Both the position numbers and the translations under genes were made by a program. From NCBI GenBank assembly GCA_949752745.1, contig OX457027.1, positions 84,059,936-84,123,935 of the forward strand: a stretch of 64,000 bases of DNA, given 5' to 3'. The notes under the pieces are model-generated. The model saw nothing but the letters and a program-made list of their open reading frames with translations, was not told the origin of the DNA and searched no databases. Source of the stretch: Protula sp. h YS-2021. Its lineage: Eukaryota > Annelida > Polychaeta > Sabellida > Serpulidae. How positions within the stretch are numbered: the first letter of the stretch is position 1; the number at the start of each line of letters is the position of its first letter. Shown one piece after another: positions 57,900-63,784 of the stretch.

Positions 57900-58265
57900 A
57901 GTAGGGTAAAAGTGGGGTTCCGAAAACAGGAAGTGACGTTATAATGACGTCAGGAGGTGTTTTCGGAGCCCCATGGGGTTCCGAAAACAGTGATGTCATA
58001 TTGACGTCATATTGACGTCATATGGTTGTCATATGGTTGTCATATGGTTGTCATATGGTTATCATATGGTTGCCATATGGACGTCATAATGACGTCAGGA
58101 GGTGTTTTCGGAGCCCCATGGGGTTCCGAAAACAGTGACGTCATATTGACGTCATATTGACGTCATATGGACGTGTTATTGACGTGATATGGAGATCATA
58201 TGGAGATCATATGGAGGTCATATGGAGGTTATATGAACGTCATATGAACGTCATAATGACGTAAT
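57900..58265. promoter_or_regulatory. Terminal palindromes with arrayed CRE/ATF octamers
   Basis: The motif GGGGTTCCGAAAACA, its inverse and another direct copy form a hairpin around CCCCATGGGG (about 57952-57987), and the block repeats near 58090-58135. At least seven TGACGTCA octamers occur, plus many TCATATGG words. The layout (motif, CRE pair 11 bp apart, hairpin, CRE pair) matches the end of Polinton 1 although the motif itself is different. Confidence 0.6.
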
Positions 58266-58395: not shown

Positions 58396-58645
58396 CAACG
58401 GCAGACGGTCAGATGAGACACCTCCCCAAACGTACAAGTTCTCCATTTTATAAATAGAGAACTCATAGCTACATGGTTAGAGCTCACCTATAAAGCCCCC
58501 TTAAAGTAAAAAAAGGGGGTATAAAAAAGGGGTAAAAAAATAGTCCCCCCCCTTTTTTTTTTTTTTTAGCATTTCCCACACTCTCATGCATACACATACA
58601 TACTAACACCATGACACGATTAGCGCTTATTTCGTATTAGTGGAT

Positions 58646-58661
58646 GGCCCTTAGAAGGGCC
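58646..58661 (-). terminator. Histone-type 3' stem-loop after the RING gene
   Basis: On the minus strand GGCCCTTCTAAGGGCC is an exact match to the metazoan histone mRNA consensus GGYYCTTYTNAGRRCC (6-bp stem, 4-base loop TCTA). It lies 66 bp after the RING stop. About 13 bases further on is a purine-rich GAAATAAG stretch, where the U7 snRNA-binding element of histone genes sits. The identical hairpin follows the zinc-ribbon gene at 59912-59927. Confidence 0.6.
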
Positions 58662-58727
58662 GGAAGGTTTTTGCTGCCAGACTTAGAAAAATTCGACAAT
58701 GTCTTGGATTGGCCTTGCGCAGTGTGT

Positions 58728-59237
58728 TTATTGCTGGCTGTTGAAAACGTAATGATCCGTTTTCAGTCCGCAGGTGAAGCATGCAGTCGTGTATTCATCA
58801 GCAAGCGCCGTCATGTGAGTCCAAATTGCAGCGCAGTAAATACATGATTTATGGCCGCAATCCACAGCAATAACGCGATCAGGACTGAGCATGCAGCCGC
58901 ATGAGATACATATGTCGAGGTCTTGCTGGAGGAAGAATCTTCCCCATGCTGGATACTCTTCCTCCTCAAGTCTTGATGGTATCGATTCCCCCAGCATGGT
59001 GCATCGGAAGTAAGCCTCGACGTAATGTCCCTGCTCAATATTTTCCAACCGCTTTCCCAGCGTCACCCTCCGGTTAAAAAAGACCGGAACACAGAGGACC
59101 TTGGCGTTGGCAGGGTTCGGCAGCATCTGGTAGAAAAAAAATCTCTCAGGCTGGAACGCTGGCGGCACCACCGGCACTTGCACCTCCCTGACTTCCCTCA
59201 CCGTGAGAACATCGTTTAACGCATAGAAGAGCTCCAT
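58728..59237 (-). CDS. RING-type zinc-finger protein of Polinton 2
   Basis: The product is 169 aa from the ATG at 59237, chosen because upstream in-frame sequence is poly-C minisatellite and a TATA box lies 50 bp upstream. The N-terminal ~100 residues are unrecognised. The C-terminus has RING-like spacing: CISCG, then CGHKSCIYCA and CFTCG (C-x2-C, C-x-H-x2-C-x2-C, C-x2-C), the fold of ubiquitin E3 ligases. No intron. It is divergent from the zinc-ribbon gene and absent from Polinton 1 in this position. E3 activity is inferred. Confidence 0.62.
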   Translation of the reverse strand: MELFYALNDVLTVREVREVQVPVVPPAFQPERFFFYQMLPNPANAKVLCVPVFFNRRVTLGKRLENIEQGHYVEAYFRCTMLGESIPSRLEEEEYPAWGRFFLQQDLDICISCGCMLSPDRVIAVDCGHKSCIYCAAIWTHMTALADEYTTACFTCGLKTDHYVFNSQQ

Positions 59238-59286
59238 AGCCGTGAGTGATGAAAGCGGTTGTGAGCCTGAACTGAAATGGCTACCA

Positions 59287-59294
59287 CTTATATA
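59287..59294 (-). promoter_or_regulatory. TATA box of the RING gene
   Basis: TATATAAG (minus) lies 50 bp upstream of the ATG at 59237, at the left edge of the 295-bp divergent promoter region. Confidence 0.6.
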
Positions 59295-59304
59295 CCACTT
59301 GAAG

Positions 59305-59460
59305 TAAGGACCCCCCCCCCCCGGCAGCAGATATGAAGCAAGGACCCCCCCTGGCAGCAGATATGAAGCAAGGACCCCCCCTAGGCAGCGGATATGAAGC
59401 AAGAACCCCCCCACCATGGGCAGCGAATACGAAGCAAGGACCCCCCCCCCCCCATTCAGC
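59305..59460. repeat. Poly-C minisatellite in the divergent promoter
   Basis: Four to five ~36-bp units follow the pattern GCAGCAGATATGAAGCAAGGACCC plus a C run. They separate the RING and zinc-ribbon promoters. Confidence 0.8.
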
Positions 59461-59487
59461 ATATAATGCGAGGATGGTCGCTAGTAG

Positions 59488-59496
59488 TATATAAAG
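59488..59496 (+). promoter_or_regulatory. TATA box of the zinc-ribbon gene
   Basis: TATATAAAG lies 37 bp upstream of the ATG at 59534. Confidence 0.6.
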
Positions 59497-59533
59497 GTGG
59501 GTTACAGCTACATTATCCAACACAAGCAGCAAG

Positions 59534-59887
59534 ATGTCGACAAGTCGTAAAATCACAGTGATGCGAAACGGCAAGGCAGTGACGCTAACGACTGAGTGTT
59601 ATAAGTGTTGGGTATGGTTGGAGTACCCAGGTCAACCACACAACTGCCCGGTGCACCACAATGCACCACGACATTACTGCTGCAAAACTTGCGGTGGACT
59701 GCTCTGGTACAAGTTTACTGCGAGATTGCCAGGACCGGAGCCATGCACGGACTGCTGGTGGTGCGGTGCGACGCTGAAAAACTTTGGCTACTATAACTTC
59801 CATCCGTTCAAGTGTGCACGAAGACCGTTCTCCATGGTACAATTTTACAGATATCAGTGTGATTGTGGAAATCCGACTTGTTGGTGA
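59534..59887 (+). CDS. Cys-rich zinc-ribbon-like protein of Polinton 2
   Basis: The product is 117 aa with many Cys/His pairs: CYKC, NCPVHH, CCKTCGG, CTDCWWCGA and CDCGNPTCW. These are compatible with two or three zinc knuckles or ribbons. It is basic and aromatic, with no signal or membrane segment and no intron. It is divergent from the RING gene and ends with the same histone-type stem-loop 24 bp after the stop. Family is not recognised. Confidence 0.6.
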   Translation: MSTSRKITVMRNGKAVTLTTECYKCWVWLEYPGQPHNCPVHHNAPRHYCCKTCGGLLWYKFTARLPGPEPCTDCWWCGATLKNFGYYNFHPFKCARRPFSMVQFYRYQCDCGNPTCW

Positions 59888-59911
59888 AGAGCCAACTCAC
59901 TAACATCTTTC

Positions 59912-59927
59912 GGCCCTTCTAAGGGCC
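59912..59927 (+). terminator. Histone-type 3' stem-loop after the zinc-ribbon gene
   Basis: GGCCCTTCTAAGGGCC matches the histone mRNA stem-loop consensus at every position. It is followed after ~11 bases by purine-rich GAAATGAAAACG (U7-binding-element-like). Flanking bases CGG and ATCC are shared with the inverted copy at 58646-58661. Confidence 0.6.
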
Positions 59928-59976
59928 ATCCTCTGCTGTGAAATGAAAACGCAAATTCTGTCTATGTATGAGTGTG

Positions 59977-60091: not shown

Positions 60092-63000
60092 ATGGAAGAA
60101 GATGACATTTGGCCATACGGTCAAGTTCAGTGTATGGAATGCAATGTGAAATTTCCATCTATGGATACTTATGAGACACATACATGCAGTAAAGCTGAGA
60201 TGAAAGGAGCAAAGAGACAAAAGATGGAAGAAGATGACATTTGGCCATACGGTCAAGTTCAGTGTATGGAATGCAATTTAAAATTTCCATCTATGGATAC
60301 TTATGAGGCACATGCATGCATACCAGCTGAGATGGACAATGTACCTCATGAAGAACATGTTTCAAAGAAACAAAAGACAGGACAAGTAGGGAGAGGTAGA
60401 AGGCTTAGTCTTGGTGAAAACGCGCAGGAAAAACGGTTTGAATCTGAGGATGGATCAGATTTACTGCTTGAAATGCGACAGCAAGAGAACCGTATCAAGA
60501 CACATTTGTTGGAGACCTTAAACCATGGAATGAAATGGTACATTGTCGTACATGCACGTTTCAAGAAACTGACAGCAAATGATGAAGGTGTTATGGTAGA
60601 ACAAGTGGATAATGCATTTATCAGCAGTCCAACATATGCAGCATACAATCCAGCAGATATTGAGCAGGACCTGCCAGAAGCCTATAAAGAATTATTTACC
60701 AAGTTTGACGAACATGAGCGACAAGGCTCTGGCTGGGTATTGGATAACATACTTTACATTGAAGTACATACAGCTACGTTGGTTCCTCTAGAAGCGAGTA
60801 GTTATGTTCCACTACCGAAGAAAGTGAAGAAAACAGAAGGTGTGATAAACATTAAGAATGATGATAACAAGTGTTTCTTATGGTCAGTATTGGCTTACCT
60901 TCACCCTCATGACAACAACCCAAATCGCGTGAATCATTACAAGCCATTTGAGAAGGAATTAAAGGTAGAGGGTATGACATTTCCGACACCAATTACTGAC
61001 ATTCCAAAGTTTGAAAAGGAGAACGATGTAGCCATCAACGTGTTTGGATATGAACAAGATGTAGTTGTTCCAATACAACTTAGTCGAAACGTCAGTGTGA
61101 GAGAAATCAACTTACTTCTGATTAGCAATGACAAGACGAGGCATTACTGCCTAATCAAGAATTTTAGCAGACTTAAGTCTTATCGATCAAAGCATAAGGC
61201 TGCATATTTTTATTGTTTCAACTGTCTTCACGGGTTTGTACGACAAGATCTTTTAGATAAACATCGTGAAGTGTGTGACAAGAATGGAGCACAACGTTTA
61301 TCATTTCCCAAGGAACCCTTCATCAAGTTCAAGAATGTGGCTAAACAACAGCGAGCACCTTTTGTGATTTATGCCGACTTTGAATGTTTCACGCAAAAGC
61401 ATGAAGAAGGAGACAAGTATCAACATCATCGTCCAAACAGCTTTGCCTATGTGGTTGTAAGCCAGTACGACACACGTGCACCAGTTGTGTATCGAGGAGA
61501 CAATGCTGTGAAAGTCTTTTTAGACCATATGGTGAATGAACGTGATCGTATTGTACGTGGTTTAGAGCGGCCAAAGGAAATGGTGATGACTCGTGAAGAC
61601 AAAAGGAATTTCAAGAACGCTGTTGATTGCTACATTTGTCATGAACCTCTAGGAGCAGATCGTGTGAGAGATCATGACCATACCAATGGCAAATATCGTG
61701 GAGCAGCGCACAATGAATGCAACTTACAATTCCGACTTAGAAAGGATCAGCAAGGGGATAAAGATTCTTTTATCATTCCCGTGTTTTTCCACAATTTGCG
61801 AGGCTATGACAGTCACCTGATCATGGAGGAAATTGGGAAATTCAAAGGTGAAACGATTACAGTCATTCCCAACACCATTGAAAAATATATTGCATTCACC
61901 GTGAGCAATCTGAAATTTACAGACAGCTTTCAGTTCATGAGTACCTCTCTACAGAAGTTGGTATCCAACCTTGCAGCAGAAGGGAAAGATAACTTCTACA
62001 ACATGACCTCTCACATTCACGATAGTGACCAACAAGATTTGTTGTTGAGAAAGGGAGTGTACCCCTATGATTATGAGGACGAACCATCCAAGTTTGCTAA
62101 AAAAAACACAGCTGCCATCAAAGGACAAGTTTTATAGTCAGCTTAGCGAAGAGGACATTAGCGATGAGGATTATGCGCATGCACAGAAGGTGTGGGATAC
62201 ATTCAACTGTACCACATTTGGTGAATACCAAGACCTGTACCTGAAATCAGATGTGTTATTACTAGCTGACGTGTTTGAAAATTTTCGTCAAGTATGCCTC
62301 AACACGTATGAATTGGATCCTGCTCACTACTATACAGCACCAGGACTGTCGTGGGATGCAATGTTGAAAGCGACAAAGGTGAAGTTGGAATTGATCAATG
62401 ACATTGACATGTATCAAATGGTTGAGCAAGGCATACGCGGAGGAATATCTGTGATCACACACAAGTATGCGAAAGCGAATAATCCCTACGTAGCAGATTA
62501 CAATTCTGAGATACCAAGCAACTATCTAATGTACCTCGACGCAAAAACTTGTATGGCTGGGCCATGTCACAAAGCATGCCGCAAAGAGGATTTATGTGGG
62601 TGAGCGAGCCAGAATCCCTCGACTGCATGGATGTAGCTGAAGATCATGACATTGGATTCATTTTGGAAGTGGATTTAGAATATCCAAATTCAATTAATGA
62701 TCGTCATAATCACTACCCACTGGCTCCAGAACGGAAATGTGTCAAAGTTGGAGAATTGTCAGAGTACAGTCAGAAGCTGCGGAAAGATCTAAACATGAAA
62801 GAGAAACCCAGTGAAAAGCTCATTCCTAACTTGTCTGACAAGAAGAAATATGTACTTCATTACAGGAATTTACAACAGTACGTCTCACTGGGGTTGAAAG
62901 TCACTAAAGTTCATCGCGCTATCATGTTTGAACAGAGCAAATGGCTGGCGAAATACATTACCTTGAACACGGAAAAGAGAAAATTGGCCAAGAACCCATT

Positions 63001-63784
63001 TGAGAAAGACTTCTTCAAACTGATGAACAACTCGTTGTTTGGCAAAACCATGGAAAATGTGAGAAAGCGAATCAATGTTGAACTTGTTCACAAGGAAAAG
63101 CGGTTCAAGAAACTTGTAGCCAAACCTTCTTTCCACAAATTCAAAATTTTGAACGAAGATTTGACCGCGGTACATTTACGCAAAGTGGACTTGCTTATGG
63201 ATAAACCCATTCAAGTTGGCTTCACCATTCTCGACCTCAGCAAAGTGCTTATGTTCAACTTTCATTACAACTACATCATGGTCAAGTATCCCAATGCCAA
63301 GTTGTTGTTCAGCGACACCGACAGTCTATGTTACGACATAGAAACGGAAGATATCTACAAGGATATGCAGCAAGATGCTGACCTGTTCGACACAAGTGAC
63401 TATCCGCCAGATCACTTCCTACATTCCAACTTGAACAAAAACGTGCTTGGGAAAATGAAGGATGAGACGGCAGGCATCCCCATTGAAGAGTTTGTTGGAC
63501 TCAGACCGAAAATGTACAGTTTATTGTGCGGTGGGAAAGAAAAACATACAGTTAAAGGCATCACTCGAGCTTGTCAAAGACGCATTAAACATGCGCAGTA
63601 TAGAGACAGTTTGTTCAAGAAAACTCAAACGATGGCTACAGGACACATTATTCGAAGTCATAGTCACCAGCTTTTCTCGGAGAAGTTGAGGAAAATAGCC
63701 CTATCCCCATATGACGACAAGCGATATGTATTGGATGATGGCTATTCCACTTTAGCGTATGGACATTACAAAGCAATAGCATAA
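60092..63784 (+). pseudogene. POLB: Family B DNA polymerase of Polinton 2, frameshifted twice
   Basis: It is collinear with Polinton 1 PolB and most residues are identical by eye. The N-terminal finger region carries a local duplication (DIWPYGQVQCMECN twice). ExoI YADFECF, the endonuclease VII-like RDHDH insert and ExoII NLRGYDSH are intact in the first frame (60092-62137). An A-run near 62098-62106 is four bases longer than in Polinton 1 and shifts the frame. A one-base deletion near 62541, inside polymerase motif A, shifts it back. The segment between (62100-62541, including ExoIII) is therefore out of frame and motif A is damaged. Motifs B (NNSLFGKT) and C (DTDS) are intact in 62549-63784. 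It is non-functional unless frames are corrected during expression. Confidence 0.9.

Follow-up and report, generated by a model that had tools for sequence, protein, structure and literature searches.

The window (the whole 64-kb stretch of DNA that was analysed) carries two Polinton-type elements. The first encodes an integrase with a chromodomain, an adenovirus-type protease that falls just short of its cut-off (20.9 versus 21.3) and an IVa2/A32-like ATPase, and is bounded by long (terminal) inverted repeats. The second element, which is likened to the first by its polymerase gene alone, carries the cassette described here: two small, intronless and divergent genes that encode a RING-like protein and a zinc-ribbon (ZnR) protein, each with a TATA box ~40-50 nt upstream of its ATG (Table 1). 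We take the adjoining frame, which begins at 60092, ~165 nt past the ZnR hairpin, to be a protein-primed DNA polymerase B on the basis of motifs and gene order; neither Pfam (polymerase families, E 0.01) nor the PDB (E 1) gave a match for it. The TATA scan covered 21 sequences; the RING-side box is missing in L084, and L073 and L091 lay outside the 19 starts displayed, while on the ZnR side only sequences with TATAA were displayed, L080 and L091 not being among them. Outside the Polintons, positions 549-2387 hold three near-identical 142-aa minus-strand frames that form a tandem repeat with 705 bp spacing.

Table 1. Features of the divergent cassette and the neighbouring polymerase frame, in window positions.
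Feature	Position	Strand	Basis
GAAATAA, histone-downstream-element-like	58627..58633	-	direct reading; element common to host histone genes at 11-13 nt
Histone-type 3' stem-loop, RING-like gene	58646..58661	-	exact consensus; RF00032 28.7 bits; RING-tail model 67.5 bits
RING-like gene, frame from MELFY, ends early versus most copies	58728..59237	-	C3HC4-type spacing by eye; sub-cut-off Pfam RING matches
TATATAA box, RING-like gene	59288..59294	-	direct reading; present in 18/19 RING starts displayed
TATATAAA box, zinc-ribbon gene	59488..59495	+	direct reading; present in 19/21 sequences scanned
Zinc-ribbon (ZnR) gene, 117 aa, Cys-rich, intronless	59534..59887	+	open frame; 2,544 first-look genome candidates, 150 scored
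Histone-type 3' stem-loop, zinc-ribbon gene	59912..59927	+	exact consensus; RF00032 22.8 bits; RING-tail model 39.6 bits
GAAATGA, histone-downstream-element-like	59940..59946	+	direct reading; element common to host H3, H4, H2B at 11-13 nt
Presumed DNA polymerase B gene, same Polinton, split into three overlapping open frames	60092..63784	+	~93% DNA identity to first Polinton's counterpart

The two cassette proteins are poorly matched by known families. RING-like proteins reach at best 14.2 bits against the Pfam RING domain (cut-off 21; L006 has no match) and weakly match TRIM RING domains (E 0.2). Neither protein matches a histone in Pfam, protein searches with the two returned no homologue, a PHROGs search returned nothing, and IMG/VR contained no relative when searched with the polymerase or with ZnR. 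Possible but weakly supported roles are ubiquitin ligase for the RING-like protein and regulator for the zinc-ribbon protein. Purifying selection acts on both proteins, as the median dN/dS is 0.054 among 17 distinct ZnR frames (114 pairs with dS > 0.1; median dS 0.59) and 0.077 among 10 RING frames (9 pairs with dS > 0.1, the 6 listed all including L073; median dS 1.40). Because these frames came from loci fetched by their hairpin, the ratios report constraint on the proteins and not on the hairpin; constraint on the hairpin is read from the sampled copies described below.

The first-pass annotation had described a histone-type stem-loop that fits the consensus at all 16 positions after both genes, each followed by a GAAAT(G/A)A element, and both observations hold. 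The sequence GGCCCTTCTAAGGGCC matches the histone consensus GGYYCTTYTNAGRRCC with 0 mismatches at the two sites, and the downstream element, which is the same as that of host histone genes, starts exactly 12 nt past each hairpin. These are the only exact consensus matches in the window. When up to 2 mismatches are allowed there are 6 matches, 2 of them being opposite-strand readings of the exact sites, and 6 matches were reached in 1/100 shuffles. Both hairpins score below the gathering score of 34 for Rfam RF00032 (Histone3). The ZnR hairpin lies 24 nt past its stop codon, and the RING hairpin 66 nt past its own, as compared to 17-42 nt in most relatives, because the window's RING frame stops ~15 codons short of most of them. 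When a covariance model was trained on 35 RING tails other than the window's, it recovered both sites, and its next best match in the rest of the window scored 12.9 bits (E 0.75). With this model no stem-loop was found after the polymerase gene up to the window end, and the other Polinton genes of the window show no histone-type signal. Several further features surround the RING tail. Behind the hairpin, positions 57913-58260 are dense in CATATG repeats and in TGACGTCA repeats, the latter being CRE-like palindromes, and part of this region shares 79% identity with the inverted repeats of the window's first Polinton. Rfam microRNA matches at 57997-58105 fall in the CATATG repeats, and the microRNA reading was dropped. 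A further short TGTCATGG-like motif follows the downstream element in the window (58600-58625) and in many tails of the RING-tail alignment, and the host H4 tail contains TTGTCATG near its downstream element.

The host genome that was scanned (863 Mb in 218 contigs; all results come from this one genome) contains 2,229 exact matches to the consensus as compared to 20 for the reversed pattern. Histone, SLBP and Polinton content points to an animal, and the N-terminus of H2B is lophotrochozoan-like. Among the first 30 exact-match loci (L001-L030), in which a cassette is sometimes represented by both its ends, 28 adjoin a ZnR or RING gene as judged by tblastn. The remaining two (L020 and L021, position 1501) have a histone-type hairpin without ZnR or RING nearby and possibly belong to another gene family. 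At position 1501 of L001, a ZnR copy has a hairpin whose loop reads as the reverse complement, as if flipped. Of the exact matches genome-wide, just 12 have a stem whose pair 4 is a C-A mismatch (GGCCCT..AGAGCC). Searches by protein gave 2,544 first-look candidates for ZnR (150 scored, 3 with an internal stop), 2,020 for a second ZnR lineage that is ~63% identical (150 scored) and 2,160 for RING (150 scored); the three candidate sets overlap, and such first-look counts are not numbers of verified copies.

Copies chosen by their protein rather than by their hairpin bear out what the first-pass annotation had suggested looking for, the same hairpin in other Polinton copies. All 20 copies of ZnR lineage 1, hand-picked from the 150 scored and close relatives of the window copy, have the exact hairpin, and in all 20 the polymerase frame follows ~165 nt downstream. 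For lineage 2, of which 20 copies were picked from 150, the exact hairpin is present in 19 (in L129 a G-C pair has become G.U) and GAAATGA is present in all 20 by eye. The 431 nt fetched for these copies contain no polymerase match, being too short to reach the polymerase; in the one lineage-2 element followed further (G000:C6:52955902-52971643, loci L133-L135) the polymerase match starts ~480 nt past ZnR. This Polinton has ZnR at both of its ends, ~15 kb apart, the gene lying inside a terminal inverted repeat that is 98.8% identical over 321 nt; the capsid, polymerase and other proteins of the element share 82-93% identity with their counterparts in the window's first Polinton.

The RING sample is more varied, as its 40 copies were hand-picked for divergence from the 150 scored and are 47-100% identical to the query. 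A hairpin with a score of at least 13 and six pairs is present in 27/40 tails versus 6/8,000 dinucleotide shuffles, and one with a score of at least 14 and six pairs in 24/40 versus 0/8,000; the exact consensus occurs in 8/40. Five tails have no usable hairpin (L145, L149, L152, L153 and L174) and 8 more are short of full pairing or score, which leaves 13/40 below the criterion. By hand tally, the RING hairpin is kept in 17/25 copies without an internal stop and in 10/15 with one, and its loss did not clearly track loss of the frame. Among L001-L030, 11 distinct cassettes combine an exact-hairpin ZnR gene with an adjacent RING C-terminus. On their RING side the hairpin matches exactly in 6 cassettes, varies but still pairs in 2 (L006 and L017), and has decayed or been lost in 3 (L007, L008 and L030).

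To examine the RING stem, the 5 hairpin-less tails were dropped from the 40, leaving 35 tails and 33 distinct rows. The hairpin register is the best-scoring 16-mer, a rule that favours pairing and that was also applied to the dinucleotide shuffles of the RING tails. In this set 95.9% of 197 cells pair, and both sides have changed in 26 cells. The covariation score is 0.386 (reached in 0/500 shuffles), as compared to 0.168 for shuffled tails and at most 0.147 for slid structures, so the compensatory stem changes that the first-pass annotation had proposed as a check were found. On two weaker covariation measures the shuffles equalled the tails more often, in 36/500 for the number of pairs with a double change and in 122/500 for the number of further pair types. 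Variation is seen at stem pair 1 (C-G, G-C, U.G and U-A), which one RING lineage has changed to C-G or U.G, and at pair 4 (U-A and C-G), while pair 2 is G-C in 31/33 rows. In the simulations described in PMC10388802, SLBP Arg181 contacts G7, and retention of the second G-C pair is what would be expected if SLBP reads its G. Uridines 1 and 3 of the loop are retained in 32/35 tails. In L136-L144, which belong to the RING lineage of L006, the stem appears by eye to reach ~9 bp via adjacent GGC/GCC pairing.

The host's own histone genes provide the closest comparison. PF00125 gave 60 matches in the host genome, mainly in the C7 cluster, and 30 of these loci were fetched. The H4, H3 and H2B tails carry GGCTCTTTTGAGAGCC, GGCTCTTTTAAGAGCC and GGCTCTTTTCAGAGCC, respectively, 20-35 nt past the stop codon, and each of these hairpins is followed by GAAATAA or GAAATGA. 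Across distinct tails, GAAATRA lies 11-13 nt past the hairpin in 6/7 host histone tails and 12-13 nt past it in 20/29 other tails (L001, L020 and L021 included). The purine element singled out by the first-pass annotation equals the host histone downstream element and lies at nearly the same distance. Among the 35 hairpin-bearing RING tails, GAAAT is present in 22, one lineage having AAAAT instead, and AAATAA, AAATGA or GAATAA begins 13-17 nt past the 16-mer in 34. A covariance model made from RING tails only finds matches in 28/30 host histone loci (none in L047 and L056), with scores of 41 bits for H4 (E 1e-7 in 100 kb), 31 bits for H3 and 34.7 to 16.5 bits at the other loci, the weakest with an E of 0.15. 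Under RF00032 the cassette hairpins score 22.7-32.0 bits, a range that overlaps host H3 (33.9) and an H3 variant (24.4); at E 0.1 this model has no match for host H4 or H2B, nor for the RING tails L136, L147 and L165. Its gathering score of 34 is reached by no cassette hairpin and by none of the 3 host histone loci tested, and is thus not discriminating here. Upstream, by-eye comparison of cassette and host histone promoters side by side revealed nothing evident in common beyond a TATA-like box.

Candidates for the processing factors are encoded in the host. Exons of the SLBP domain yield 5 PF15247 matches over the cut-off, the best with one in-frame stop, and a candidate U7 snRNA scores 29.9 bits (gathering score 34; genome-wide E 0.057). 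Through its UAUUUC this candidate can base-pair with the GAAAUR of host H3 and of cassette tails, the core pairing being the same. Of the comparison with U7 that the first-pass annotation had proposed, the ability to pair stood but its energy was not significant: duplex energies are better than those of shuffles (P 0.05) in 0/29 cassette tails and 2/7 host tails. The pairing is consistent with histone-type processing and is no proof of it.

As judged from sequence, both genes carry a stem-loop that has the loop uridines of histone genes and a G-C as its second pair, together with a host-like downstream element whose core is identical, and whose spacing is nearly identical, to that of host histone genes and which is kept in most sampled copies; the signal is kept across deep divergence, with compensatory changes in its stem. 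It is very likely that in this Polinton lineage the two divergent accessory genes are equipped with a working host-type replication-dependent histone 3' end signal, and the element has probably co-opted the S-phase mRNA machinery of the cell.

Three other explanations for the hairpins were weighed against a working histone signal. Giant viruses and virophages follow a hairpin rule at gene ends, and the hairpins could accordingly be generic 3' poly(A) or termination hairpins of the sort that virus-like elements can use, their likeness to histone genes being coincidental; AATAAA is in fact found within the downstream element in 10/20 lineage-1 ZnR tails (searched to 100 nt; ATTAAA in 1), which means that a poly(A) end is possible there. 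However, AATAAA is missing within 100 nt in all 20 lineage-2 ZnR tails and in 29/35 RING tails (present in 6), and poly(A) signals are not conserved in cassette tails. The loop uridines and second G-C pair are also retained beyond what mere pairing would ask, the downstream element is the host histone element and the RING-only model recovers host histone tails, so that we regard generic hairpins as improbable.

Still less probable is that the cassette took its signal from a host histone gene and that recent copying has preserved it without a function. The flanks do resemble host H4 and H3 tails, and many copies are near-identical. When RING_L002 is aligned with the region upstream of the H4 hairpin, 0/1,000 shuffles score as high; RING downstream flanks align with H4 at P 0.000-0.009 and ZnR flanks with H3 and H2B at P 0.002-0.014, where the P values derive from 1,000 mononucleotide shuffles, are uncorrected for 36 comparisons and stand beside many other pairs that were not significant. 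These alignments suggest that the cassette flanks are akin to host histone tails; as the downstream stretch contains the functional element, capture and convergence are inseparable. What argues against a functionless remnant is that hairpins persist, with compensatory changes, in RING copies that are ~50% identical in protein, and that synonymous divergence reaches values above 1 among hairpin-bearing RING copies (loci fetched by hairpin).

The first-pass annotation had raised the alternative that the hairpins are simply the inverted ends of a captured cassette. Taken as a DNA-level feature retained for recombination or excision, this is similarly improbable: the cassette is divergent and its two tails in the window are 81% complementary as an inverted repeat of 43 nt, but lineage-2 ZnR retains its hairpin with no RING found at its locus L022, a single cassette may have two unlike hairpins (as in L002), the likeness to host histone tails runs into the downstream flank, the compensatory changes and the strand-specific, asymmetrically retained loop uridines fit an RNA, and the model trained on RING tails alone also picks out the 3' ends of host histone genes.

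The simplest mechanism for a working histone signal is as follows. Host SLBP would bind the stem-loop on the nascent ZnR or RING RNA, and the U7 snRNP would pair with GAAAURA and cut ~4-5 nt past the stem, as PMC7026596 describes for histone pre-mRNA (4-5 nt past the stem). The expected products would be short, intronless, non-polyadenylated mRNAs with the hairpin mostly 17-42 nt past the stop codon, and S phase would set the timing of their synthesis, export, translation and destruction, as it does for histone mRNAs. We infer such S-phase coupling for both genes; its timing would suit an element that carries out its own DNA replication and needs to act in dividing germ or cleavage-stage cells. 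In its fullest form, which we hold to be somewhat favoured, a large animal DNA transposon family would have taken over the histone 3' end pathway: the tail would have been captured from a host histone gene, the two regulatory genes would be the first known non-histone animal stem-loop mRNAs processed by SLBP and U7, and their expression would be confined to the time of host DNA replication, probably the S phases of germline or cleavage-stage cells. If true, this would provide a mechanism by which transposition or virus-like replication is tied to S phase, and a family with ~two thousand hairpins would be a natural source of divergent SLBP/U7 substrates with an evolutionary history outside histone genes. 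Genes with such ends would escape poly(A)-selected RNA-seq.

Literature searches at the level of titles and abstract openings showed no precedent that connects histone stem-loops or SLBP with Polintons, adintoviruses, mobile elements or viruses. Scans of IMG/VR for the hairpin plus GAAA returned 4 and 2 stretches (L070 and L071 being the same sequence); upon inspection of 60-nt flanks and upstream frames they resembled, by eye, phage terminators or chance matches, and were dropped as instances of the same signal. The ZnR and RING proteins differ from the 'Oncoid' accessory proteins of adintoviruses in that they show no LxCxE motif by eye and have no relative in protein searches. They are like them in being small, virus-like accessory proteins, a class that, in PMC11071296, is defined by short linear motifs. 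Polinton/Maverick elements and adintoviruses share with the window's first element the chromodomain-bearing integrase, the adenovirus-type protease, the IVa2/A32-like ATPase and the long inverted repeats, and the cassette's own Polinton context is its position directly upstream of the polymerase frame in 20/20 sampled copies. The nearest known system is the metazoan replication-dependent histone 3' end (RF00032, SLBP, the histone downstream element and U7 snRNP). The cassette differs from it in that its proteins are not histones and its genes sit in a transposon, and in that one RING lineage has C-G or U.G as pair 1 and an apparently lengthened stem. The two systems have in common a 6-bp stem with a G-C second pair, a 4-nt loop with U1 and U3, a short spacer from the stop codon, GAAATRA 11-13 nt past the stem and intronless, TATA-driven genes, and the cassette tails are near-identical to those of host H3, H4 and H2B.
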